Positions 7,126-59,049 of a DNA stretch of 64,000 bases are shown here, in pieces. Within the stretch, counting starts at the first letter, position 1; every line of letters starts with the position of its first letter. The stretch comes from Planctomycetota bacterium. Its GTDB lineage: Bacteria; Planctomycetota; Phycisphaerae; UBA1845. Location: contig JAJRPG010000077.1 of NCBI GenBank assembly GCA_024280855.1, forward strand, positions 1-64,000, read 5' to 3'. Below the pieces are notes generated by a model. That model ran no database searches, was not told the origin of the DNA, and was given only the letters and a program-made list of their open reading frames with translations. The position numbers were made by a program, and so were the translations under genes.

Positions 7126-8397
7126 GTGTATATGATTGATGGTGCTGCTACTTCATGGGTTGAGGTTTCTTCGGAATGCGACTTCCCGATTCAAAATCTG
7201 CCCTATGGTATTTTCGATGCAAACGACAAACGGCTTCGGGTTGGTGTAGCTATCGGCGATAGCGTGCTGGACCTCGCAGCTATCCATGATGCGGGATTGT
7301 TTTCAAATACGATGCTGGCTGACGAAAATGTTTTTGCCTCGTCAAGTCTGAATGGGTTTATGAGTAAAGGGCGAGAGGCTTGGACTCAGGCTCGGCAGCG
7401 CATCAGCGAATTGCTTTCTTCAGATAACCCTACATTGCGTGATAACTCAGCCCTGCGCAGTCAAGCGTTGAAGCCCATGTCGCAGGTGAATTTGCTCATG
7501 CCAGTAGCTATCGGCGACTTCACGGATTTTTATTCTTCAAAAGAACACGCTACGAATGTGGGTACGATGTTTCGCGGCAAGGACAACGCGCTCATGCCCA
7601 ACTGGCTTCATCTTCCCGTGGGGTATCATGGCCGAGCTTCGACGGTGTTTGCTTCGGGCGTGGACATTCGCCGTCCTAAAGGTCAAACCAAAGCCGACGA
7701 AGCCGCCGCCCCCAGTTTCGGAGCCTCTCGACTGCTCGACTTTGAATTGGAAATGGGATTTTTTCTTGGAACGGGGAATCAGCCTGGCGAGCCTATTGAG
7801 ATCAATCAAACCAAGGACCACATTTTCGGCATGGTGTTATTGAATGATTGGAGCGCACGCGATATTCAAAAATGGGAATACGTCCCGCTTGGCCCGTTCC
7901 TTGGCAAAAGTTTTGCCACTTCGATAAGCCCGTGGGTGGTGACGATGGACGCGCTAGAGCCGTTTCGTGTGGCTAGTCCTAAGCAAGACCCAACGCCATT
8001 GCCCTATCTCGGCTTGGACGGCGCGGGCGCGTTTGATATTCAACTTCAGGCGTTTATTCAAAGCGAAAAAATGACTGAGCCTATGCGTCTCACTGCCACG
8101 AACTATAAATATTTGTATTGGAACATGTTTCAACAACTCGCGCATCATACGGTCAATGGTACGGGCATGCGCACGGGCGATTTATGCGGCTCTGGAACCA
8201 TCTCTGGCCCGACTGAAGATTCTCGTGGGAGTATGTTGGAAATTTGCTGGAAAGGTACGAAGCCAATCACCCTACCAGATGGTTCAGAGCGAAAGTTTTT
8301 CGCCGACGGCGACACGGTCATCATCAATGGTTGGTGCGAAGGCGAGGGGTACCGTGTGGGGTTCGGTGATGTGCGGGCGAAGATTTTGCCTGCGTAA
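7126..8397 (+). CDS. fahA: Fumarylacetoacetase
   Basis: The enzyme hydrolyses 4-fumarylacetoacetate to fumarate and acetoacetate, the last step of tyrosine catabolism through homogentisate. Its 423 residues match the long two-domain eukaryote-type FAH. An SH3-like N-terminal domain occupies about residues 1-120. The catalytic domain shows 'DFYSSKEHATNVG' (metal Asp and catalytic His), 'DFELEMGFFLG' (metal Glu residues), 'NDWSARDIQKWEY' (metal Asp) and 'LGKSFATSISPWV' (active-site Lys). The start is GTG 7126 behind AAGGTG at 7113-7118; ATG 7132 is an alternative. No other gene of the pathway is next to it. Confidence 0.95.
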   Translation: MYMIDGAATSWVEVSSECDFPIQNLPYGIFDANDKRLRVGVAIGDSVLDLAAIHDAGLFSNTMLADENVFASSSLNGFMSKGREAWTQARQRISELLSSDNPTLRDNSALRSQALKPMSQVNLLMPVAIGDFTDFYSSKEHATNVGTMFRGKDNALMPNWLHLPVGYHGRASTVFASGVDIRRPKGQTKADEAAAPSFGASRLLDFELEMGFFLGTGNQPGEPIEINQTKDHIFGMVLLNDWSARDIQKWEYVPLGPFLGKSFATSISPWVVTMDALEPFRVASPKQDPTPLPYLGLDGAGAFDIQLQAFIQSEKMTEPMRLTATNYKYLYWNMFQQLAHHTVNGTGMRTGDLCGSGTISGPTEDSRGSMLEICWKGTKPITLPDGSERKFFADGDTVIINGWCEGEGYRVGFGDVRAKILPA

Positions 8398-9462: not shown

Positions 9463-9572
9463 GTGCCCCCCCCGCGCCACGACATCAAGCTTGCCCATTG
9501 ACGGTTAGCACGAAACTAAGATACTGCTTTTGCTTTGTAATAAGGGTCGTCAGGCAGTATGAGAGATTCACT

Positions 9573-11345
9573 ATGCGTACATGGATAATCAAGCGGGCAT
9601 CGTTAGCCATGAGGCTTATCATCGTTAGTGGACTGAGCAGCGGTAGCCATCTCGCGTTGGCACAAACCAATCTGAAGTTGGAAAAGGTAGCTAACCGATA
9701 TTGGGAAGCGACGCTTGAGCGGTTTCCGGAGAGAGCTACGGCGATGGGCGATCATCGCTATAACGATCAACTAACCGATCTGAGTATCTTAGCCAGAAAA
9801 GCGTGGGAGAATTCTCTGCGCAATTTGCTATCAGATTTGAAGCGCGTTCAAAAGCCGTTGCTCAACGAAGCCGACAAACTCACGCACCGACTACTCGATC
9901 GAACCATTCAAGACGACATCTTGCGATTAGCCGTGATTTCGCCTTATATGCCGCTCGATCCACTTGACGGTATTCAAGTTCGATTTCCGCTTTTGCTTGT
10001 GTCACAACCTTTTCGCAACGTTCAGGATTATCGCAATTACATCAAACGCTTGAACGGCTTCCCTAAGCAAATCACAGATACGATCAATAACTTGCGCGAC
10101 GGTATCAATCGCGATCTGGTATCGCCGCGCGTGATTGTGAAGAAGGTCATTCCGCAGGTGCGGGCACATGTTGTGAGTGATGTGACCAGGAGCGAGTTTT
10201 ATAAGCCTATGTTTCAAGCGGATTTTTTGGGTGAGGAGCAACGTCGTGACATAGATCATGATTTACAAAACGCGATACAGGCGGATGTCATTCCTGCGTA
10301 CCTGCGACTCATGGCTTACCTCGAAGACGAATATCTACCGGCCTCGCGTTCGACGGTGGGTATTGGTGCGCTGCTCGGTGGGAAAGAGTTGTACAAAGCC
10401 TTAGCCCGGTTGCATACGACTGTGTCGATCGAGCCTGACGAGATTCATGAAATAGGTTTAGCTGAGGTAGCCCGCATTAGGCTGGCGTTTTCAAAAATTC
10501 AAACAGAGGTTGGTTTTTCTGGCACGTTGGATGAGTTCATTGTTCACATGCGTAGCGATCCCAAATATCGCTTTACCTCTAGCCAAGAGTTGTATGACGC
10601 CGCCGAGAAAATTTTGAATCGTACCAAGCCTTTGATGTCAAAACTTTTTGGCCAATTGCCCAAGGCGGATATAGTCATGAAGGAGATTGAAGCTTTTCGT
10701 GCGCCAGCAGCGCCAGTAGCTTACTATAATCCCACGCCGGAAGATGGGTCACGACCGGGCTATTTTTACATCAATACCTATGCGCCGAAGAAGCGATTAC
10801 GGTTTACGTTGGAAGCGCTGACCTATCACGAATCTATCCCTGGCCATCATCTGCAGATGGCTTTGCACCAGGAGAAAAAGGACTTACTAAAATTTCGCCG
10901 TTACGGTTCGTTCACCGCATTCGTAGAAGGCTGGGCGTTGTATACTGAAAAGTTAGGCTATGAAATTGGCGGTTATCAAGATGTCTACTCGCGCTTTGGG
11001 CAATTGACCTTTGAGATGTGGCGGGCGTGTCGATTGGTCGTTGATACCGGCATGCACGTCAAAGGTTGGTCACGACAACGTGCGATTGACTTCATGGCTA
11101 CTAATACTTCGCTGGTGATGTTGGATATTGAATCGGAGATAGACCGTTACATCACCTGGCCTGGTCAGGCGCTGGCTTATAAAATCGGTGAGCTTCGCAT
11201 CCTAGCTATCAGGCACGAAGCTGAAGAAAAACTTGGGGATCGATTCGATTTAAGAAATTTTCACGATGCACTATTATCCGAAGGCGCCATGCCCATCGAC
11301 ATGCTTGAACAACGAATGAAACAGTGGACAAGTAACCAGCCATAA
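9573..11345 (+). CDS. Exported DUF885 family protein
   Basis: The 590-residue protein begins with a signal peptide: charged 'MRTWIIKR', a hydrophobic core, and a probable cut after 'HLALA'. The rest matches the DUF885 family of putative metallopeptidase-like exported proteins common in planctomycetes and other bacteria. The hallmark 'LTYHESIPGHHLQMAL' is a probable zinc-binding helix and 'FVEGWALYTEKLG' supplies a further conserved Glu. The C-terminal 'YKIGELRI' is also typical. The frame runs upstream to 9498, but ATG 9573, directly before the signal peptide, is the better start. Enzymatic activity of the family is not well defined. Confidence 0.85.
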   Translation: MRTWIIKRASLAMRLIIVSGLSSGSHLALAQTNLKLEKVANRYWEATLERFPERATAMGDHRYNDQLTDLSILARKAWENSLRNLLSDLKRVQKPLLNEADKLTHRLLDRTIQDDILRLAVISPYMPLDPLDGIQVRFPLLLVSQPFRNVQDYRNYIKRLNGFPKQITDTINNLRDGINRDLVSPRVIVKKVIPQVRAHVVSDVTRSEFYKPMFQADFLGEEQRRDIDHDLQNAIQADVIPAYLRLMAYLEDEYLPASRSTVGIGALLGGKELYKALARLHTTVSIEPDEIHEIGLAEVARIRLAFSKIQTEVGFSGTLDEFIVHMRSDPKYRFTSSQELYDAAEKILNRTKPLMSKLFGQLPKADIVMKEIEAFRAPAAPVAYYNPTPEDGSRPGYFYINTYAPKKRLRFTLEALTYHESIPGHHLQMALHQEKKDLLKFRRYGSFTAFVEGWALYTEKLGYEIGGYQDVYSRFGQLTFEMWRACRLVVDTGMHVKGWSRQRAIDFMATNTSLVMLDIESEIDRYITWPGQALAYKIGELRILAIRHEAEEKLGDRFDLRNFHDALLSEGAMPIDMLEQRMKQWTSNQP

Positions 11346-11356
11346 GGTGCTTAGAC

Positions 11357-12022
11357 ATGCCAGCTAACATGATTCCATATTCAGTAGCTTCACAAAGCGA
11401 ATCTCAAATGCTGCAAAGCGCTCAAGCATTGCTTACCCAGATGAAGGCGCGAAGAAGCTGTCGTTATTTTAGTGATAAGCCTGTGGCGAAAGAATTGATT
11501 GAAAAGATTATCGATATTGCCCATACCGCGCCCAGCGGCGCCAATAGAAAACCCTGGCGATTCGTAGCTGTTAGTGACCCTAAATTAAAACGAGAAATAC
11601 GTTTAGCAGCCGAGGCGGAAGAGCGAGAGAGTTATGACCATCGTTTTCCACAAGCTTGGCTAGACGCACTCGAACCCATTGGTACCAACGCGGAAAAGCC
11701 TTTCCTGGAAACAGTACCTTGGCTAGTCATCATGTTTCGGATTGATTGGGAAATGATCGACGGCGAGCGCGTGCTCAACTACTACCCGGCTGAGTCAACC
11801 GGCATCGCAGCTGGCATGTTCATCGCGGCGTGTCATCAGGTAGGGTTAGCTACGCTTACGCATACACCTAACCCGATGAAATTTTTACGCGAAATTCTCG
11901 GTAGACCGGCCAATGAAAAACCGTTTCTTTTGTTACCCATAGGACATCCCGCACCAGATTGCACCGTGCCAGACATCCCGAAAAAGCCTTTATCTGAAGC
12001 ACTTCAGTGGGACGCAGGTTAG
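11357..12022 (+). CDS. Nitroreductase-fold flavoprotein, iodotyrosine deiodinase (IYD) type
   Basis: This is a 221-residue FMN-dependent protein of the nitroreductase superfamily. 'RRSCRYFSDKPV' and 'TAPSGANRKPWRF' are the FMN-binding segments. It carries what sets the IYD branch apart: an active-site lid with E89, Y93 and K114, spaced exactly as Glu157, Tyr161 and Lys182 of human IYD, which hold the zwitterion of halotyrosine. 'LGRPANEKPFLLLPIGHP' and 'TVPDIPKKPL' also align with IYD. Such enzymes reductively remove iodide or bromide from halotyrosines. Known bacterial homologues do this in vitro, but their role in the cell is unclear. The gene follows the DUF885 gene by 11 nt. Confidence 0.83.
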   Translation: MPANMIPYSVASQSESQMLQSAQALLTQMKARRSCRYFSDKPVAKELIEKIIDIAHTAPSGANRKPWRFVAVSDPKLKREIRLAAEAEERESYDHRFPQAWLDALEPIGTNAEKPFLETVPWLVIMFRIDWEMIDGERVLNYYPAESTGIAAGMFIAACHQVGLATLTHTPNPMKFLREILGRPANEKPFLLLPIGHPAPDCTVPDIPKKPLSEALQWDAG

Positions 12023-33511: not shown

Positions 33512-34963
33512 CTAAGCAGCGCCGGCAATAGACTGTTCCTTGTCAGCGGAAACCAATCCCAATTGTTCTTCTAATTCTTCGACCAACACATTAAGGTCTT
33601 GCTCACGTTGACCAGCCGGGGTCATCCAACGGGCAGGTTCACTAGCCTTGAGGATTTTTCCGATACGCCGACACGCAAGAATAACCGTCGAATGATTCTT
33701 ATTGCCCATATACCGCCCAATTTCCGGGAAGCTCATCCCCGTATGCTTGCGGGCAAGATACATCGCAATACCACGGGCCAGGGCAATCGTGCGAGATTTC
33801 CGCGACGTGTGTAAATCAGCCGGCGTTAAGCCAAAGAAGATAGCTACGACGGTTTCAATATCAGAAAGCACCACAACCGGAGCCGTCTGACGAACCAAGT
33901 CACGCATCGCACGCTCAGCCAGCGATACTGTAATAGGCTGACCCATCACCTGAGCCTGAGCCACGACCTTCAACAACGCGCCTTCCAACTCGCGGATATT
34001 AGCCCGGAAGTTTTCTGCAATGTGCATGATGACGGCTTCACCAATATCGACCTGCAACAGTGACGCACGACGACGCAACACTTCCGCTCGTACCGCTACG
34101 TCAGGCGAATCTACACGGACGACCATGCCAGATAGGAAACGACTCACCAACGACTCGGAAAAATGACCGATCATTTTTGGGTGAGCATCGGAAGCTAGCA
34201 CAATCTGCTTACCAGCTGCGTCAATCGACTTAAACGTATTTAAGAATTCTTCCTGCGTACCACGCTTGTTGGCGAAGAAGTGTACGTCATCAATAATCAA
34301 AACATCAAGATTACGATACTGCTCACGGAACGCACCTTCTTCACGGGCACGAACGGAGAACACGAAGTCGTTCGTGAACTCTTCGCCGGATACATACTTC
34401 CAGGTTAACTGTGGCGCATGTTCGGTCAGGTGATTGCAGATGCCTTGAAGTAAATGCGTTTTACCCAGCCCGCAACCACCGTGAATGAACAAAGGGTTGT
34501 AAGTCTTACCCGGAGCCTCAGCCACTGCTACCGCTGCGGCATGGGCCATGCGATTGGAAGCACCAACCACAAAGGAGGACAACTTACCCTTCAATCGCGG
34601 TCTAGCTATCACCTGCCCAGGATGGCGAGGTTGCCTAGCCAACCTTTCCGGATTGTGGGTCACAAAATCCAATTGACGATCAGGCTGCTTCTTACGAAGG
34701 TCTTTCGCAAGCAGCGGATCGATGGCGAAGCTGAGGGTGTATCGGTGTCCCGTCACCTCCTCGATCGCTTCTAAAATAGTGTCAGAAAAGTGTCGCTCAA
34801 TCCAATCACTAATAAAGTGGTTGGGAGCATTCACCCGACAGTATTGGTCCGTGAACAAAAACCTGGTGGCGTTCTTGAACCAAACATTGAATCGCTGCGA
34901 TCCAATTTTGTCGGCTATACGTGCTTCCACTTGCGTAACGGCGTCAGTAGCGCAGACAGTCAC
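33512..34963 (-). CDS. dnaA: Chromosomal replication initiator DnaA
   Basis: DnaA binds DnaA boxes at oriC and opens the duplex for replication. The 483-residue protein has domain I from the start ('FNVWFKNATRF'), a short linker, and an AAA+ domain with Walker A 'GGCGLGKTHLLQ' and Walker B 'VLIIDDVHFF'. The C-terminal domain IV carries the signature 'SRKSRTIALARGIAMYLAR' and 'NKNHSTVILACRRI'. The start is a GTG at 34963, fixed by AAGGAGG at 34969-34975. The longer frame to 35032 would add an implausible hydrophobic leader. dnaN, recF and gyrB are not adjacent. Confidence 0.97.
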   Translation of the reverse strand: MTVCATDAVTQVEARIADKIGSQRFNVWFKNATRFLFTDQYCRVNAPNHFISDWIERHFSDTILEAIEEVTGHRYTLSFAIDPLLAKDLRKKQPDRQLDFVTHNPERLARQPRHPGQVIARPRLKGKLSSFVVGASNRMAHAAAVAVAEAPGKTYNPLFIHGGCGLGKTHLLQGICNHLTEHAPQLTWKYVSGEEFTNDFVFSVRAREEGAFREQYRNLDVLIIDDVHFFANKRGTQEEFLNTFKSIDAAGKQIVLASDAHPKMIGHFSESLVSRFLSGMVVRVDSPDVAVRAEVLRRRASLLQVDIGEAVIMHIAENFRANIRELEGALLKVVAQAQVMGQPITVSLAERAMRDLVRQTAPVVVLSDIETVVAIFFGLTPADLHTSRKSRTIALARGIAMYLARKHTGMSFPEIGRYMGNKNHSTVILACRRIGKILKASEPARWMTPAGQREQDLNVLVEELEEQLGLVSADKEQSIAGAA

Positions 34964-34968
34964 CGCGA

Positions 34969-34975
34969 CCTCCTT
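34969..34975 (-). promoter_or_regulatory. Ribosome binding site that fixes the dnaA GTG start
   Basis: AAGGAGG lies 5 nt before the GTG at 34963 on the minus strand. It is a full anti-Shine-Dalgarno match and rules out the longer frame. Confidence 0.8.
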
Positions 34976-35032
34976 CAAAAAAAGAATAGGAAAAAAATAG
35001 AAACCAAAATATATTGCTACGAATCTAACCAA

Positions 35033-42320: not shown

Positions 42321-44255
42321 TTGACGGCTGGTGCAGAGGTCCATAGCGACGCTGGAACGAGTTTGTTGCGAAATCGTAACTTCATCCTCCTGTGGTGCGC
42401 CTACGCTGTCAGCGCCATGGGCGACCACTTATCAGAGATGGCTATCCTCAAAACACAAAACGCTCTCGACGCCAATGTAGACATGACCGCGCTCAACGCT
42501 CGGATGACTTTCACCTTTTTCCTCCCATTCTTTCTATTCAGCGCAGCCGCTGGCGTATTAGCCGACCGATTGCCGCGACGAGCGCTAATGGTCAGCGCCG
42601 ACCTCATGCGCTGCATCATTTTAGCTTCGTTCGGAGCGCTCATCCTATGGACCCAGGACTGGGGCGTATGGGGGGTGTTCTTGCCCTTGAGTTTGGTCGG
42701 CGCTTTCGCGGCTATCTTCTCGCCCGCCCGCTCTGCGCTACTATCAAATATCGTTCATCCCAACGAATTAGCCCGCGCCAACGGTATGATTAGTGGTCTG
42801 GGAATCATCGCCACCATGGCTGCGGCGAAGATTGGTGGATACTTAGCCGATTACTACGAACCCTCAGTCGCCTTTCGGGTCGATGCCGCTACCTTCGTAG
42901 TCAGCGCCGTATTGCTGATGCTCATGACCTCACATGGTACGCCACCCGTTAAAGCTTCGGCCAAAAAAAACAGCGTACTAACCGACCTTCGCGCGGGCTT
43001 TCGTTATGCTAAATCGCATCGCCACGTCGCCGAATTCATAGCCATCGCTGCCCTGGTCTGGTTTTGCGGGCCGTTGGTCAATAGCGTACTCCCCGCCATC
43101 GTGCGGGACGTTTACGAAGGAACCTATCAAGACATCAGCAACTACCGCGCCCTACTGGGCCTGGGCTTTATATTTGGTGCCGTTATCGTGTCAGTAATCG
43201 CGGGATCACTACAAAGCGGCATCATCATCACCTGGAGCTTATTCGGCATTTCAGCTAGCGTAGCTGTTCTGGCGTCTTCGGTTATTTTCTCACGATGGGG
43301 ATTCCAAGCTAGCACTCTGGCTTTCATCGGCGGATGCGGTGTTGTCGGGGCGGGCATGTTCACCGTGGCCATCATGGCTACATTTAATGCCATGTTGCAG
43401 CGGACCGTAACGAATCGATATCGAGGCCGCATATTTGGCGTGACCGACGTATCCACCGTCGGAGCATTGCTATTAGCCACCGGGGCATTGGGGTTCCCCA
43501 CATCATTCCGCGTAGACCGCTGGGTGGGAGAGATTCTCTTGGTCGTCACGCTGCTCACTTTTTCCGCAGGACTATATACCTTTTTTACAAGGCTTAAACG
43601 AAACTATATGGACGACGCCATGGTGCTGGTATGTTGCCACCTAGCCCAATTCATCTCGCGGTTCTGGTGGCGCATGCAGCGTCTAGGCCCAGCGACATTG
43701 CCACGCACAGGAGGTGTAATCGTCACAGCGAACCATACTTCTTCCGCAGACCCATTTTTATTACACGCGGCTGCGACTTATAGATTAACTTCGTATATGT
43801 TCGCCAAAGAACATGCCGAAAAACCGTTCATCAGATGGTTCGCCAAAAAAGTCGAATGCATTCTCGTGAAGCGCGATGGACAAGATACTGGTGCGACGAA
43901 ACAAGCGATGCGGTTATTGCGCGAGGGGAAAGTCGTCGGCATTTTCATCGAAGGGGGAATCGTACCTCCGGGCGAAGTTGGCGTACCCAAGGACGGCGTC
44001 GCGATGCTTGCACTCAAAACCGGTGCGACGGTGATTCCGGCTTATATTAGCGGTTTAACCTATTATGATAGTATGCTACTAGCCTTTATCATGAGGCATC
44101 ATGCGCGGGTGCGCATGGGCCAAGCTGTGGACCTGTCCGAGTTTAGAGAGGGAAAAGCCAGTCGAGAGCAAATTCGACAGGCGACGCAAAAAATTTACGC
44201 AGCCGTCCAAGCGCTTGCACCGTCCCATTTTGAAAATAATAAAACTCCCCTATAA
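42321..44255 (+). CDS. MFS transporter-acyltransferase (PlsC) fusion protein
   Basis: The first 430 residues form a 12-helix major facilitator of the LplT/enterobactin-exporter type ('NFILLWCAYAVSAMGDHL', 'GVLADRLPRRALMVSADLMR'). The last 200 residues are a 1-acylglycerolphosphate acyltransferase domain with the HxxxxD motif 'NHTSSADPF', a divergent 'FIEGGIVPPGE' in place of FPEG, and 'VIPAYISGL'. By analogy with the LplT-Aas couple of E. coli, it may flip lysophospholipid inward and re-acylate it, but the acyl-ACP synthetase part of Aas is missing. The start is uncertain: TTG 42321 is used because no ATG precedes the first helix. Confidence 0.82.
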   Translation: MTAGAEVHSDAGTSLLRNRNFILLWCAYAVSAMGDHLSEMAILKTQNALDANVDMTALNARMTFTFFLPFFLFSAAAGVLADRLPRRALMVSADLMRCIILASFGALILWTQDWGVWGVFLPLSLVGAFAAIFSPARSALLSNIVHPNELARANGMISGLGIIATMAAAKIGGYLADYYEPSVAFRVDAATFVVSAVLLMLMTSHGTPPVKASAKKNSVLTDLRAGFRYAKSHRHVAEFIAIAALVWFCGPLVNSVLPAIVRDVYEGTYQDISNYRALLGLGFIFGAVIVSVIAGSLQSGIIITWSLFGISASVAVLASSVIFSRWGFQASTLAFIGGCGVVGAGMFTVAIMATFNAMLQRTVTNRYRGRIFGVTDVSTVGALLLATGALGFPTSFRVDRWVGEILLVVTLLTFSAGLYTFFTRLKRNYMDDAMVLVCCHLAQFISRFWWRMQRLGPATLPRTGGVIVTANHTSSADPFLLHAAATYRLTSYMFAKEHAEKPFIRWFAKKVECILVKRDGQDTGATKQAMRLLREGKVVGIFIEGGIVPPGEVGVPKDGVAMLALKTGATVIPAYISGLTYYDSMLLAFIMRHHARVRMGQAVDLSEFREGKASREQIRQATQKIYAAVQALAPSHFENNKTPL

Positions 44256-49331: not shown

Positions 49332-49585
49332 GTTGGCGTGTCATGGAGTCGAAATGTCGAATAGACCCTTTCCCCAATAAATGGAAAATGTGAACAGAGT
49401 GCTGTCACAATCGTCATTTCTGCCCTATTTCGAAGATTTGAAGGCCAAAACCCATAAACATGCTTGAATATAGGGTATGGAATCTGCTATACTGCCTTTT
49501 CGTGCTGCGGAGTTCTCCGGGGCATCCGTAAGGTCTGTTGAGAAACGTTGAATGGTTAGCCTGCATGTTCAGGTCGGGGAAATTT

Positions 49586-52500
49586 ATGTTCAGTTGTATT
49601 CGTTTCGTGTCGCTATTTGTGATGGCCTCAAGCAGCGTAGCCCTCGGCGAAGTGCCACAGCCGATGAGTGCGTTGCCGGGTAGGCAGGCCATCGCTCCGC
49701 AGATTCTTCCTCCGCAAAGCGAGGGAATTACCAAGCCGATAGAAACCCGATCAGAACCGCAAGTACGAAAAGACCCCGGCGACATCATAGACGGCTCAAT
49801 TGTTACGTTGGGTTTGGATGACTGCGACACGCCGATCAGGCCGAACAACGATTGCAATCAAAATGGCGTAGCTGATGAGTGCGAGATTGATTGCAATGTC
49901 AACGACATAGCTGATGCATGCGAAATCGTAACCGACCCATCTCTTGATTGCGATTCAAATGGTGTAATAGATGCGTGTGGTTTGACATCGTTAGATATGC
50001 TGTCTGATCCGTTTTTACAAGATAATACTTATGGCTGGTCTTTCGATGTGCAACATGATCTACTTGTTGTCAGTGCAAGGGTGTCCAAAGTGGTGTATGT
50101 ATATCGCAAGATTGATACGACATGGGGATATGAAAGTACGCTGTTACCATCGATAGATGGGGAAAGAGACTTTGGATTAGAAGTAGCTATTTTCGATGGT
50201 GAAATAGCTGTCATATCAAATGTGGGTATTAGTTTTTATCATTTTACTGAATCGACTTGGCAGCTCAAAGACTATATATCGGTTTTCAATTTGAAAAATT
50301 TCAAATTTGGAAAGGACTTAATAGTTGCACGTACTCAAAATTTTCGGGATCTACCTCATGTCTGGAGACGTATCAATGGGGTTTGGAATGATACTGAATA
50401 CATCGGAATCGAGAATAAACTTGCAGTAGATATTCGAGCCTTGGGACGCGCTTTGGCGATTCATGGCGATAATATAGTTTCATCAGCTGTCGATAGAGGA
50501 ATTAATCCGCGCGGTGGATCAGGTTTGGTTTACACATTTGAACATGTAACCCATAGCTGGAATGGCACGATATATGATTACTGGATACCCATCGAATCCA
50601 CGACGATATCTGCGCCGAATAATGTTGCTGCTGGATTTGGCAGTACGATAAGCGTCTATGGAGATACTCTAGTTCTTGGGTCGCCCTCTGAAAGCAATGG
50701 ACGAGACCAATCCCAAGGGGCTGTTTACATTTATGTGTGGACCGGAAGTAAATGGTTCCTGCAGCACAGACTAACCGCAAACATTTCAGACCCATTCTAT
50801 TCGTTTGGTAAGGATGTTACTATTGATGGCTCAAATTTAGCGATAAAAGTTACGGACGGATTTCGTATATATCAATTCGATGGCCAATCTTGGAAGTTCA
50901 CTGTTACTGTTAAACATGATGCATTGCCAGCGATCGATGGCGTTAATTATTTGGTGTACACTCCTGGTGATTCTACAGGACAACCTCCTAGCGTATTGCC
51001 CTACATTTTACCACTTAATGATTGTGATGGAATGGGCAACCCTGATGTTTGCGTATTAGAAAATGAGCAAGCAATTGATTGCGACGGCAATACGGTTCCT
51101 GATGCCTGTGAAGTAGATTGCAACATCAACGGAGTGTCGGACAAATGCGACTTGATGGCTGGTGATAGTATTGATTGCCAAGGTAACGGCATTCCAGATG
51201 AATGTGAAGTTGCTTTTAACGACTGCAATAAAAATGGTATCCCCGATGATTGCGAAGGTGACTGTAATGGTAATGGCGTACCAGATCCGTGCGAGATTCT
51301 GGCGGGCGATGCATTCGATTGCAATTACTCTGGTGTACTTGATGAGTGCGAAACGGAGCCAGTACAATTGGGCATATTACGTTCCATTGAAGAACTGGCT
51401 GCACCTACTTATCGACCATTTCCCTGGTATGCCTCTTCCATAGATATTAGCGGGGACCGTGTAATTCTCGGGTCTCCGGCTGAAGGCCAATTCGACGGTG
51501 CCGGCGTGGTCTATATTTACGCCGAGGAACGTGGTCATTGGAATCAGGAAGCTATTCTAAGCGAACCAGACCCCGCCTGGATCAATAACTTTGGACGCAA
51601 TGTCGCGATCGATGGAGACTTGGCGGTAGTCTCTATTGGCCAGGTTCCTCGTGTTTATGTCTATCGCCGTACAGATTCTGGTTGGGTCCAGGATTTTCTG
51701 TTCACAAACTCAGACGGCCTGAAAGCTTATACTGGCGATATCTTCATAGAAGGGGAACGTGTTTTTATAGCAAGCGGCGAAGAGGTTTTAGTTTTTCATT
51801 ACGATGGTGAGAATTGGGGCCGAGAAGCTTCTTTGTTGCCGCAAGGTAATCCAGATTTCCTGGGTGATGTCTGTAGTATATCCGGCGATCAAGGTACGGT
51901 GGCCATTGGCTATTGTAGGGCCGATGTTGCTGAAGATGATTCGGATAATAGTGGCGCGGTGGCCATATTTGAGCGTGATGGCAATCAGTGGGAAGAAGTG
52001 ATTAAATTTAGTGCGCCGGCCGCGAGGCGAAGCGCATACTTTGGTACCGATTTATCAATTCACGGTGACTGGCTATCAGTGGTTGAAGCTAAGGATAGTT
52101 TTTCAGGAATTACAAATAGCTGGAGCGATAGCTCAGTATATATATATCAGAGGATTGATAGCGAATGGGTTTTGAATCTACAGCTTCCCGCTCTGGGTGA
52201 GACAACGAATAAGATTCACGCAAAATCTGTGGCTATGCAAAATGATGTATTGCTCATTGGTAAATTCAAAGAAACGACCGGCTTTTTTCGTACCGGCGAA
52301 GTTGACCTGTATCGTCTGATAGTAGATGAATGGGTGTATGAACAAACTTTTACTGGGGATGAAGTTCAAAAAAACAGCGTATACGGTCTGGTATTAGCCA
52401 TGGACCAAGGGCGTGCCATTGTCAATTTTGGTTGGTATCTAAATTGGTACTACGAGGGGGATGCGAAAGCATATATTTTCAATGTACCCTTCTCCGATTG

Positions 52501-54283
52501 TAACGGCAACAAAATTCCGGACGATTGCGACATAGAGTTGGGCATCAGTGCAGATTGTAACAATAATAATTACCCAGACGACTGCGACATCGACACACCG
52601 TTTCTTGATTGCAACCAGAATGGCCAATTCGATACCTGCGAGATGGATGCAGACTCGAGCCTCGATTGTGATGCCAGCATGAGATTGGATGAGTGCGAGA
52701 ATGTGCCCTATACCGTTGGCGCGTTTGCAGATTCCGATCCTCGAGATTCAAAGTTTGGCGTTGGCTTGGCACAGGCAAAAGATATTCTTGTAATAGGTGA
52801 TTCCGACACATGGTTGACACATGTGTATCGAAAACAAAATGGCGAATGGCTGCTAGAGCAAAAAATCGACTGCGAAAGCAATACAGACAATTGTGGCCGA
52901 GCTGTGGCAACAGATGGGCACACTATTGCAGTTAACGGGGTAAGTAAAGGCCGTATCACAGGGTTTTACGGTTCCAGCATGGTCCATCTTTATCGCCATG
53001 ACGGGGCATCATGGAACTTAGATGGCACACTCGTTCCTTCAGATCGAAGCGATAATGATGGTGAAAGTACTAGTTATTATGATTACCTTCTTGGCGACGA
53101 TAACATTAGCATCGAAGGAAACACCGTAGCAGTTGGACTTGCCAGAAAGAATGGCCGAGACGGTGCTGTGTATATCCAACAGCGCATCGCTGACCAATGG
53201 CAGGAGACTCAGATTTTACATCCCGATACTGATGACATCGGAGCGGAGTTTGGAGTCTCAGTACGACTATCAGGTGAGTGGTTATTCGTTGGCGCTCATC
53301 ACAGTAATGGGTATCGTGGCAGTGTATACATATACAAATTTGATGGATCAACATGGAATATGGTGGATAGGCTGTATTCGGAATTTACCGACTACGATTA
53401 CATCCGATTTGGAGAATCATTATCAGTAGACGGCAATAGGCTTGCGGTTGTATCGCCAGAGGAGCGGTCAGCCGTCGGGGGGACAGGTGTCATATATCTA
53501 TACTGCCTTGACAACGGCCATTGGATTCAATGCGATAAAATCTCTTCTCAAGATGACTTTATCTACTTAGCAGACGGCACGCACATTAGCCTGAAGGGGG
53601 ATTATTTGGTCGTAGGTTGTCCTGATTGTAATTATAGCTCGGGAGGATTCGCCTATCTATTTAAGTACGATGGAGATTCCTGGGTCGAATTGCCGTACTA
53701 CGATGGCGACTCTAATTCTTTGAATGTGTACAGGCTCGGCACAAGAGTGGCCATTGATGATGACACCGCCCTTGTAGCCGCACCGTATGCACTTAACTAT
53801 TATTACAACGGTCGCCCGCCATCCGTCATGGCTATCGCATTCCCCTTCATCGACTGCAACCTAAACAGCTCACCTGACGAATGCGACATCGAAAGCGGCT
53901 TAAGCATGGATTGCAACGCCAACCGCAAACCCGACGAATGCGACTTGGACGACGACGGGGACTTAATTCCCAACGATTGCGATCAGTGCCTTGCCTCTGA
54001 CATTTCCTCTACGATTATTATCAATGGCTGCGACACGGGCGTGCCAAATGAGTTGGATAGCTTTGGGTGCAGCATGGCTGACGCTTTTGAATCTTGCCCT
54101 CAACATCAACTTGGTAGTGATGCAACAGTCGATTGCGTCGTAGCCATTGCTAACCAATGGATCAAAGACGGTCGGCTGGAGCAGCTAAGTCTGAGTGCAT
54201 TCAGGAAGTGCGGCATGCGGATCCCACTGCAACAAGCCGAGAGAGACCAAGTGAGTCGAAGCGTGGGTAAACGAGTTCGCTAG
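49586..54283 (+). CDS. Giant secreted FG-GAP repeat protein with DCNGNGIPDDCE linkers
   Basis: The protein of 1565 residues has a signal peptide ending near 'SSSVALG'. It is built of three large blocks of FG-GAP/integrin-like propeller blades with patterns such as 'FGxxVAIDGDxxVVS' and 'GAVYIYxxxxxxW'. The blocks are separated by cysteine- and Asp-rich linkers such as 'DCNQNGVADECEIDCNVND', 'DCNKNGIPDDCEGDCNGNG' and 'DCNGNKIPDDCD'. These linkers look like calcium-binding loops stapled by disulfides. A C-terminal segment of about 100 residues resembles no known anchor. It is probably extracellular, in adhesion or matrix. ATG 49586 is chosen because GGGGA lies 5 nt upstream and the signal peptide follows directly. 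Confidence 0.85.
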   Translation: MFSCIRFVSLFVMASSSVALGEVPQPMSALPGRQAIAPQILPPQSEGITKPIETRSEPQVRKDPGDIIDGSIVTLGLDDCDTPIRPNNDCNQNGVADECEIDCNVNDIADACEIVTDPSLDCDSNGVIDACGLTSLDMLSDPFLQDNTYGWSFDVQHDLLVVSARVSKVVYVYRKIDTTWGYESTLLPSIDGERDFGLEVAIFDGEIAVISNVGISFYHFTESTWQLKDYISVFNLKNFKFGKDLIVARTQNFRDLPHVWRRINGVWNDTEYIGIENKLAVDIRALGRALAIHGDNIVSSAVDRGINPRGGSGLVYTFEHVTHSWNGTIYDYWIPIESTTISAPNNVAAGFGSTISVYGDTLVLGSPSESNGRDQSQGAVYIYVWTGSKWFLQHRLTANISDPFYSFGKDVTIDGSNLAIKVTDGFRIYQFDGQSWKFTVTVKHDALPAIDGVNYLVYTPGDSTGQPPSVLPYILPLNDCDGMGNPDVCVLENEQAIDCDGNTVPDACEVDCNINGVSDKCDLMAGDSIDCQGNGIPDECEVAFNDCNKNGIPDDCEGDCNGNGVPDPCEILAGDAFDCNYSGVLDECETEPVQLGILRSIEELAAPTYRPFPWYASSIDISGDRVILGSPAEGQFDGAGVVYIYAEERGHWNQEAILSEPDPAWINNFGRNVAIDGDLAVVSIGQVPRVYVYRRTDSGWVQDFLFTNSDGLKAYTGDIFIEGERVFIASGEEVLVFHYDGENWGREASLLPQGNPDFLGDVCSISGDQGTVAIGYCRADVAEDDSDNSGAVAIFERDGNQWEEVIKFSAPAARRSAYFGTDLSIHGDWLSVVEAKDSFSGITNSWSDSSVYIYQRIDSEWVLNLQLPALGETTNKIHAKSVAMQNDVLLIGKFKETTGFFRTGEVDLYRLIVDEWVYEQTFTGDEVQKNSVYGLVLAMDQGRAIVNFGWYLNWYYEGDAKAYIFNVPFSDCNGNKIPDDCDIELGISADCNNNNYPDDCDIDTPFLDCNQNGQFDTCEMDADSSLDCDASMRLDECENVPYTVGAFADSDPRDSKFGVGLAQAKDILVIGDSDTWLTHVYRKQNGEWLLEQKIDCESNTDNCGRAVATDGHTIAVNGVSKGRITGFYGSSMVHLYRHDGASWNLDGTLVPSDRSDNDGESTSYYDYLLGDDNISIEGNTVAVGLARKNGRDGAVYIQQRIADQWQETQILHPDTDDIGAEFGVSVRLSGEWLFVGAHHSNGYRGSVYIYKFDGSTWNMVDRLYSEFTDYDYIRFGESLSVDGNRLAVVSPEERSAVGGTGVIYLYCLDNGHWIQCDKISSQDDFIYLADGTHISLKGDYLVVGCPDCNYSSGGFAYLFKYDGDSWVELPYYDGDSNSLNVYRLGTRVAIDDDTALVAAPYALNYYYNGRPPSVMAIAFPFIDCNLNSSPDECDIESGLSMDCNANRKPDECDLDDDGDLIPNDCDQCLASDISSTIIINGCDTGVPNELDSFGCSMADAFESCPQHQLGSDATVDCVVAIANQWIKDGRLEQLSLSAFRKCGMRIPLQQAERDQVSRSVGKRVR

Positions 54284-55510: not shown

Positions 55511-56971
55511 CTACAAAATCGGCAACGAGACGTCGTTCGTATCCTCGTCTTCCTCCTCTTCATCATCCAAAATAGCTGACGCAACGGAATCTACCAGACT
55601 TTCCAAGTCGTCATCGCCAATCGTACGAAGATCAAAGCAAATCGCCTCATTACGGATTCTAGCGATCACGGGAACTTCCGCTTCTCGCAAAGCCGCTGCG
55701 ATTTCGGTCGCCCCCGCCCCCGCAGGCCGCCACTGGACAACTACCGTAGTCAACTCCTGCGCGGGCAAAGTCCCGCCGCCGGCATAAGCCACGTCTGACC
55801 CCACGAAAAAATGCTCCTCAGGAAGCACCTGCGACAGCAACTCAGACAGTTTCTCTGCCCGCTTAGCCAAGTCCTCCGTCGTCGCCGTCAGCATTGCCAA
55901 TGTCGGAACAAGTTCTGGTGCTTGCTCCCGGTCAGCATAACATCGAAGCGTCGCCTCCAAAGCCAACAGCGTCAGCTTGCCCACGCGATACGTTCTCATC
56001 AGCGGGTTAGCCTCAATCTGATCGATCAAATCCTGCCTACCCACAATAATGCCACACTGCGGACCGCCGAGAAGCTTGTCACCAGAAAAACATATCAGGT
56101 CCGCACCCGCATCCACCGACGCTTGCACATGAGGCTCATCCGGCAAACCCAATGGCTTCAAATCAAACAACGCCCCGCTACCTAAATCGTCCACCACCGG
56201 CAAATCAAAACGGTGGGCTAACTCAACCAACTCATCAATACCCACGCTCTCACAAAATCCTTCGATGCGATAGTTGCTCGTATGCACACGAACCAAAGCA
56301 GCCGTGTCGCTACCAATCGCTTGTTCATAATCGCTAATCCGTGTTCGATTGGTTGTGCCGACTTCTTTTAATGTAACACCCGCAGCGCGAATGATATCTG
56401 GCAACCGAAAGCTTCCCCCAATCTCAACCAATTGGCCTCGAGATACGACGACATCTTTCCCGTTGGCTAGCGTTTGCAAAATCAGTAGCGTCGCTGCGGC
56501 ATTATTATTAACGACAGTCGCGGCCTCTGCCCCGGTAATCTCAGCTAGAAGCTCAGAGACATGAACCTGTCGCTTGCCACGCTGCCCGGTCTCCAGATCA
56601 TATTCAAGATTGCAATAGCCTCCGATGCTTTCTGCCAAAGCTTCAACAGCAGCTTCACAAAGCGGCGCTCGACCTAACCCCGTGTGCAGCACGATTCCCG
56701 TCGCGTTAATAACACCACGCAAACTCGGCGTAGACCGTTCAAGCAAATAGACCTCAGCCTCAGCCACCAAATCGTCTGGGTCAACAGAAATGTCGTCGCC
56801 ATCAAGAATAGCTTCCCGCGCCTCGTCGATAGCCTCTTGCAGTGAGGAAACCACATACGACCTCGGCGAACCAGCTAGCCAATCGACAACCTCTTCATGT
56901 TCAAGCAAAGAGGCTACAGATGGTAACGCCCGCAGCATTTTTTTCGTCTCAGCATTCATAAGAACATCCAT
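55511..56971 (-). CDS. selA: L-seryl-tRNA(Sec) selenium transferase SelA
   Basis: SelA is the PLP enzyme that turns Ser-tRNA(Sec) into Sec-tRNA(Sec) using selenophosphate. The 486-residue protein has the N-terminal segment 'ALPSVASLLEH', then 'VINATGIVLHTGLGRAPL', 'EYDLETGQRGKRQVH', 'VVNNNAAATLL' and the PLP lysine in 'CFSGDKLLGGPQCGIIVG'. The start is uncertain: ATG 56971, ATG 56959 and TTG 56995 are in frame, and the last lies directly beside a REP doublet. An acidic C-terminal tail ('DDEEEEDEDTND') is extra. It lies downstream of selB on the same strand. Confidence 0.95.
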   Translation of the reverse strand: MDVLMNAETKKMLRALPSVASLLEHEEVVDWLAGSPRSYVVSSLQEAIDEAREAILDGDDISVDPDDLVAEAEVYLLERSTPSLRGVINATGIVLHTGLGRAPLCEAAVEALAESIGGYCNLEYDLETGQRGKRQVHVSELLAEITGAEAATVVNNNAAATLLILQTLANGKDVVVSRGQLVEIGGSFRLPDIIRAAGVTLKEVGTTNRTRISDYEQAIGSDTAALVRVHTSNYRIEGFCESVGIDELVELAHRFDLPVVDDLGSGALFDLKPLGLPDEPHVQASVDAGADLICFSGDKLLGGPQCGIIVGRQDLIDQIEANPLMRTYRVGKLTLLALEATLRCYADREQAPELVPTLAMLTATTEDLAKRAEKLSELLSQVLPEEHFFVGSDVAYAGGGTLPAQELTTVVVQWRPAGAGATEIAAALREAEVPVIARIRNEAICFDLRTIGDDDLESLVDSVASAILDDEEEEDEDTNDVSLPIL

Positions 56972-56996
56972 GACTTTCGCATGACTACTTTCCAAT

Positions 56997-57080
56997 CAGA
57001 GCACCTGGCGCGAGCCTGGTGGCACGACCCCCCACACTCGCTATTGACAATTGCCCGCAGGCTTGCGCCGTGCGGCTCTG
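56997..57080 (-). repeat. REP-like doublet, family 1, between selB and selA
   Basis: CAGAG, hairpin CACCTGGCGC/GAGCCTGGTG, a 34-nt spacer, then hairpin CCGCAGGC-TTGC-GCCGTGCGG and CTCTG. It is the same design as at 59821-59906 and as the cores at 9356 and 47377. It fills the whole gap between the selB stop and the selA start. Confidence 0.8.
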
Positions 57081-57102
57081 CAACACCGCCTTCTGGATTC
57101 TT

Positions 57103-59049
57103 TCATTTCAACTCCACAAGCGTTCGACCATCACCCTGTCTCTTCGTAAAACCAATGTGGTCGAGATACTCCATAAATGGCACCACAAATTTCCTACTAG
57201 AGTCCAACGCCTCCCGCACATGGGCAATCGTCACCGATTCATGGCTACGAATCAACTGGCTAACCGTTTCTCGCAACTTTTGTTCGTTATGAACGTGCAT
57301 GAACATTTTAGCCTCGATTTTTATTAAGTCTCCCATCGCCACCGCTAACGTCGCCAATTTCTCAACCCGCTTTCGGTCAACCTTCTTCGCAATAGCCAGC
57401 CCATCCAACGACGGAGGCTGAAAACCACCCCGCTGCATCTCATCAATCATATCAACCAGATGCTGCTCATCGGCCTTCGATAACTTAGGCGCAAACTCCG
57501 GCAGACAAGTAAACCGGCCAAACGGTTTAATCGTTTTGCGCTTCACAAAAAGATCGTACAACGGCTTAGCCAGGGACGGACTGCTCAATCGCCCCAACCA
57601 TCCAATCACCGCGTCACTACCTCGGCCCGGCTCGTCCGCATGACGCTGATGATATCGCTTTAGCCAACGCAACAACCGTTCACCTAAATCATCAATCGCA
57701 CCAGGCGTGGCCCATACCTTCGTACCTCGGATAGCTATCAACCGACCATCGGCTTTCAGTTGTTCGTAACAATCACCAACACGCGAAAGGGGGATACCCG
57801 TTCGAGCGCACATGTGAAAATCCGTCGGTGCCGTAAATCGATATTCTCGTAACACCTGCGCGACACGATCAACATCCTCGCCACTTTCCATCACTGAGAG
57901 TGCCAAGACCGTGTCCTTGATAGATGCCCGCCGTCGCCGAACCGAAGTGCGCAATATAACCCCGCCGCCAATGGTCCGCGTCGCGGATTCATCTCGTAAA
58001 ATAAATCGCTGACCATAGTTAGCCACGAAAGCTTGCCCGCTACGCAACTGTGCATAACAAGCCTCGCCCGGAGCAAGCAGCTTATCTTCAAACAACCCAA
58101 CACGAACCGGAAGCTCAGCTGTCCCCATACCCAAACGCGCCGTCTGCGTCGATTTCAACGATTTGGGATTAGACGACAAATACGTCAGCTTCACATCCGC
58201 CACATGAACAGGCTCCAGATAACCCGGCGTAGCCAATTCACTCCCTCGCCACAAAGCGTCTTTATCAATGCCACTTAAATTGATAGCTGCCCGACGTCCA
58301 CGAGCCAACACCTCGCAAGAACAGCCATGAGCCTGTAAACTTCGCACACGACAGGTCTGCCCGCCGGGCCAAACTTGCAACTCGTCACCCGCAGACACCT
58401 GCCCCTGCAATATCGACCCTGTCACCACAGTGCCACGTCCTGGCACTGTAAACACTCGATCCAAACACATGCGAAACGGGCTGGGCGGACTTTCCTGATG
58501 AGATAACTTCGCCACCTCAACAAGTGTTAGCCTCAAGGCATCAATGCCCACTCCCGTAATCGACGACACCGGGCAAATAGGCGAATCAGCCAAGGGCGAA
58601 CCATCGAGCAATTCCGTCACTTCCTCAATGACCAGCTCCACCATGTCAGCCTCAACCATGTCAGTTTTCGTCACAGCTACTACACATAGTTTCACGCCCA
58701 CAAGATGCAGAATCTCAACATGCTCCCGCGTTTGCGGCATCACAGAATCATCAGCCGCGACCACCAACAGCGCAACGTCAATCCCCGTCGCGCCAGCGAC
58801 CATCGTTTTAATAAACCGCTCATGACCCGGCACATCGACCACGCCGAACTGAACATCGCCAATGCTCAGCTCCGCGAATCCCAGCTCAATGGTCATTCCA
58901 CGCCGTTTTTCTTCAGGCAGACGGTCGGCGTCGATTCCTGTAAGAACCTTTACCAGCGACGTTTTACCGTGGTCAATATGCCCCGCAGTACCTAGGATGA
59001 AATGCTGCGAGGTGCGACTTATATTATTTTGCATGGCTTCGTCGATCAT
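57103..59049 (-). CDS. selB: Selenocysteine-specific elongation factor SelB
   Basis: SelB brings Sec-tRNA(Sec) to the ribosome at UGA codons marked by a SECIS hairpin. The 648-residue protein has the GTPase motifs '[14 protein letters not shown]' (G1), '[11 protein letters not shown]' (G2), 'DVPGHERFI' (G3) and 'VTKTDMV' (G4). These are followed by EF-Tu-like domains 2 and 3 ('[15 protein letters not shown]'). From about residue 400 come the winged-helix repeats that bind SECIS RNA. Length fits the bacterial family. The gene is divergent from the selenoprotein gene at 59142 across only 92 nt, and selA follows it. Confidence 0.96.

Follow-up and report, generated by a model that had tools for sequence, protein, structure and literature searches.

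Genomic context of the iyd gene

The window analyzed here is a stretch of 64,000 nucleotides from a Planctomycetota bacterium (contig JAJRPG010000077.1). It carries an ORF of 221 amino acids whose product is a protein with the FMN nitroreductase fold belonging to the iodotyrosine deiodinase (IYD) branch, so the identification given in the first-pass annotation was right. The gene is called iyd in this text. The genes around it are all on the + strand, in the order fahA-PHP-DUF885-iyd-gcvT-gcvH, where PHP is a HisJ-like phosphatase. The coordinates of the main features are the following:

7126..8397, + strand: fumarylacetoacetase (fahA), three genes upstream of iyd
9498..11345, + strand: DUF885 protein, 11 bp upstream of iyd
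11357..12022, + strand: iodotyrosine deiodinase homologue with FMN nitroreductase fold, ATG-started ORF of 221 aa
12120..13682, + strand: gcvT and gcvH (glycine cleavage system), downstream of iyd

The iyd ORF begins 11 bp downstream of the DUF885 gene, with which it is probably co-transcribed, and ends 97 bp upstream of gcvT. Its start codon is supported by the relatives of the same genus, since their proteins align with it from residue 1 (90% and 84% identity). In the IYD of genome G149 there seemed to be an in-frame TGA, which is the natural stop codon. A Pfam search of the iyd product found the nitroreductase domain (E 2.7e-25), and the NCBIfam search returned no equivalog above its own cut-off.

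Elsewhere in the window, the following features were observed:

33512-35032, - strand: dnaA; the sign of the GC skew changes more than once across the window
42321-44255, + strand: MFS transporter fused to an acyltransferase domain
49538-54283, + strand: protein of 1581 aa with FG-GAP repeats, its other domain match being below threshold
55511-59049, - strand: selA and selB (selenocysteine synthase and elongation factor), side by side; no tRNA-Sec was found within the window

Sequence relationship to iodotyrosine deiodinases

The window protein was compared with 177,635 PDB sequences, and the five best matches were all iodotyrosine deiodinases, from Haliscomenobacter hydrossis and from mammals. 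The first of them was the H. hydrossis enzyme (49% identity, E = 1.5e-63), whose chain is labelled "Nitroreductase" in the sequence set and named IYD in the titles of the PDB entries. The mammalian enzymes gave values of about 1e-45 to 1e-44 (human IYD, 40% identity, E = 3.9e-45), followed by the Thermotoga IYD (2.6e-20) and by the first other nitroreductase (1e-15). As judged from the sequences, the similarity to IYD is far beyond chance. Moreover, the alignment confirmed the match of the LGRPxxEK and TVPD segments to human IYD that had been noted at first.

Active-site triad and flavin contacts

The residues E89, Y93 and K114 of the window protein correspond to Glu157, Tyr161 and Lys182 of human IYD. 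The alignment is free of gaps through the triad, with the spacing originally reported, and the pattern E-x3-Y-x20-K has a single occurrence in the window protein and a single one in the part of the human sequence checked, at the same place. The codons of the triad are:

11621..11623, + strand: E89 (human Glu157)
11633..11635, + strand: Y93 (human Tyr161)
11696..11698, + strand: K114 (human Lys182)

The triad, together with R32, R36, A62 and T170, was invariant in the alignment of 100 out of 100 related loci, a set in which a few genes are represented twice. A62 is equivalent to human Ala130 and T170 to human Thr239, counting along the alignment and allowing for a gap of one residue between positions 134 and 135. 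A strict pattern had suggested that the triad was absent in 13 loci, but the alignment shows an insertion of one residue between Y and K and an intact triad. The IYDs that carry this insertion in the lid are those of loci L059, L060, L061, L068, L069, L070, L086, L087, L091, L109, L117, L119 and L130. In the tree described below, the sampled proteins with the insertion and two without it form one supported group.

Concerning the cofactor, the FMN contacts described in mouse IYD are R96, R97, S98, R100, P123, S124, T235 and R275 (PMC3930498), and their equivalents in the window protein are R32, R33, S34, R36, P59, S60, T170 and K209, respectively. Seven of the eight contacts are thus identical, and the exception, K209 in place of R275, is a conservative change.

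Structure model

An AlphaFold2 model of the window protein was built on an alignment of 30 sequences (pLDDT 92, pTM 0.88) and compared with known structures using Foldseek and VIA-align. It superposed on the closed-lid, iodotyrosine-bound H. hydrossis structure 5ko8 (chain 5ko8_B) with an rmsd of 1.1 A over 217 residues and Z 28.3, and a Z of 28.4 was obtained both with the iodotyrosine-bound mouse structure 3gfd and with human 4ttc. IYD chains without iodotyrosine, which have fewer ordered residues, aligned over 183-201 residues. From these superpositions, the model is in the closed-lid form. At the level of backbone superposition, the whole predicted chain matches the iodotyrosine-bound structures, including the lid, whose ability to place the triad on the substrate had been raised as a point to check. 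The score was lower for Thermotoga 6pz0 (Z 23.5), and the best structure outside IYD, 4dn2, reached Z 18.4, with BluB at Z 18.3.

Separation from other nitroreductases

A phylogenetic tree was built that included the paralogous nitroreductases of five bacterial genomes and of the window's own genome, where the only further nitroreductase is of another type. Among these paralogues, BluB and RutE were identified by curated models, and the YdjA-like protein fell just below its cut-off. All 44 IYD-type proteins (those of the window, human and H. hydrossis and 41 further bacterial ones) formed a single clade with a long stem and support of 100/99. The window protein therefore lies with human and H. 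hydrossis IYD, as proposed initially, and apart from the BluB, RutE, YdjA-like and NfsA/NfsB-like proteins. The order among several of the nitroreductase branches is uncertain owing to their great length. The program also gave a warning of long branches joining at the root of the IYD clade, whose unity is independent of the order of the nitroreductase branches.

The Pfam match to the nitroreductase domain, and the fact that BluB gave the best NCBIfam score, could suggest a generic nitroreductase or a BluB-type enzyme with a chance resemblance to IYD. However, the score with the BluB model (TIGR02476) was 49.8 bits against a curated cut-off of 150 and spanned only 70 residues, whereas a true BluB scores 257. 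Furthermore, with an IYD profile the scores were 340-357 bits for IYDs and did not exceed 49 for other nitroreductases; this scoring covered the five bacterial genomes plus that of the window, and the IYD members scored were themselves part of the profile. The tree and the structure comparisons exclude such a protein as well, and the probability left for a chance resemblance is close to nil. The initial statement that this is not a generic nitroreductase is borne out by both the tree and the profile scores.

Distribution of the family

At least 564 relatives were found in prokaryote species genomes, and the best 80 of them come from Planctomycetota, Bacteroidota, Pseudomonadota, Acidobacteriota, Actinomycetota, Gemmatimonadota, Chloroflexota, Verrucomicrobiota and others. 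IYD is present in 42 of 60 genomes of the window's family and order, including its own (E < 1e-60), and in 52 of 148 genomes across the phylum. Bacterial IYDs are widespread and have a solved bacterial representative, and therefore the window gene is of a known kind. The novelty implied by the first-pass annotation is not supported, given that bacterial IYDs are common and the H. hydrossis enzyme had already been solved with iodotyrosine bound. What this protein adds is a well-supported planctomycete IYD, in a family that keeps the complete triad without variation in many bacterial phyla. "Nitroreductase" is probably the only annotation that most members of this bacterial family carry.

Gene neighborhood and tyrosine degradation

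ORFs within 10 kb of IYD were clustered in about 100 loci, and no broadly shared neighbor was found among them, nor any conserved neighbor pointing to halotyrosine metabolism; since the selection of the longest ORFs left out 23 IYD ORFs, some weak links may be missed. The shared neighbors are lineage-specific. They are gcvT/gcvH in the window's family, where they adjoin IYD in the relatives of the same genus and in two other members, and fabF-, purN- and RNase III-like genes in Bacteroidota, the latter judged by eye from sequence only. DUF885 adjoins IYD, among the loci checked, only in relatives of the same genus (L033, L034/L053).

Fumarylacetoacetase catalyzes the final step of tyrosine degradation, and its gene lies upstream of iyd on the same strand. 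The iyd gene could then serve a tyrosine-degradation operon, in which tyrosine released from halotyrosine would pass through HPPD and homogentisate dioxygenase to the linked FahA. In line with this, the genome encodes HPPD with an HmgA-like gene adjoining it, and among 44 near-complete relatives HPPD is present in 30 of the 30 with IYD versus 3 of the 14 without it. On the other hand, fahA is linked to IYD in just one relative of the same genus (L033), and across 148 genomes of the phylum IYD was found in 52 and HPPD in 12, but both in only 6, so that 46 of the 52 IYD genomes have no HPPD. As the association fails across the phylum, that seen among the relatives probably comes from shared lineage and lifestyle. 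The link to tyrosine catabolism, strong within the order but not across the phylum, was not adopted and is possibly a lineage effect, and a dedicated role of iyd in such an operon seems quite improbable.

The HmgA-like gene mentioned above (L151/L152, G000:C58:33771-36132) reaches only 55 bits with the hmgA model, whose cut-off is 511, and represents a divergent form.

Proposed function

Regarding these data, the gene very probably encodes a cytosolic FMN-dependent iodotyrosine deiodinase, that is, a reductive dehalogenase of halotyrosine. The use of FMN, the dehalogenation, and the substrate with its contacts are likely by analogy with the family. In the proposed mechanism, reduced FMN would be held by R32, R33, S34, R36, P59, S60 and T170 and would pass electrons to the substrate, a halotyrosine that stacks on the flavin. 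The lid residues E89, Y93 and K114 would clamp the amino-acid zwitterion, with the amide of A62 in contact with the phenolate. The halide could then depart and tyrosine be released. A likely use would be the recovery of tyrosine from iodo- or bromotyrosine present in the environment, although the physiological role and the electron donor are speculative. The activity of human IYD in vitro extends to the debromination of bromotyrosine (PMC4708624).

Conservation of the triad is not in itself proof of halotyrosine as the natural substrate. An enzyme with the IYD fold could act naturally on another halophenol, a quinone or a nitro compound, with the turnover of halotyrosine as a side activity. 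The crystallization of H. hydrossis IYD with 2-iodophenol as well (5krd), a genomic context with no halotyrosine-specific partner and the lack of HPPD in most IYD genomes of the phylum are consistent with this. Nevertheless, the invariance of the zwitterion-clamping triad in all 100 loci would not be needed for a substrate that lacks a zwitterion, which makes a different natural substrate unlikely. More doubtful still is that the planctomycete branch has a role other than salvage, for example acting on marine halophenolic metabolites or supplying halide, with a dedicated electron donor. The neighborhood and co-occurrence data do not settle the substrate or the electron donor of bacterial IYDs, and the deiodinase function stands as the preferred reading.

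Comparison with known systems

The closest known system is H. hydrossis IYD (5ko7, 5ko8, 5krd), which resembles the window protein in fold, length, triad, flavin contacts and the LTHTPxPM loop. It comes from Bacteroidota, whereas the window protein comes from Planctomycetota and is known from its sequence and model. BluB (2isj; TIGR02476) has in common the fold of the nitroreductase superfamily and the FMN site segment, but only 19% identity. The Thermotoga IYD (PDB 6pz0) shares the fold and the IYD annotation; it has 192 aa and is 28% identical, while the window protein retains a full-length lid. Finally, the triad, the fold (Z 28.4) and the LGRPxxEK and TVPD segments are common to mammalian IYD (IYD/DEHAL1; 4ttb, 4ttc, 3gfd). 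The mammalian enzyme has an N-terminal membrane anchor, whereas the window protein begins at the catalytic domain; the window protein has LTHTPNPM where the human enzyme has VTTTPLNC, and K209 where the mouse enzyme has R275.
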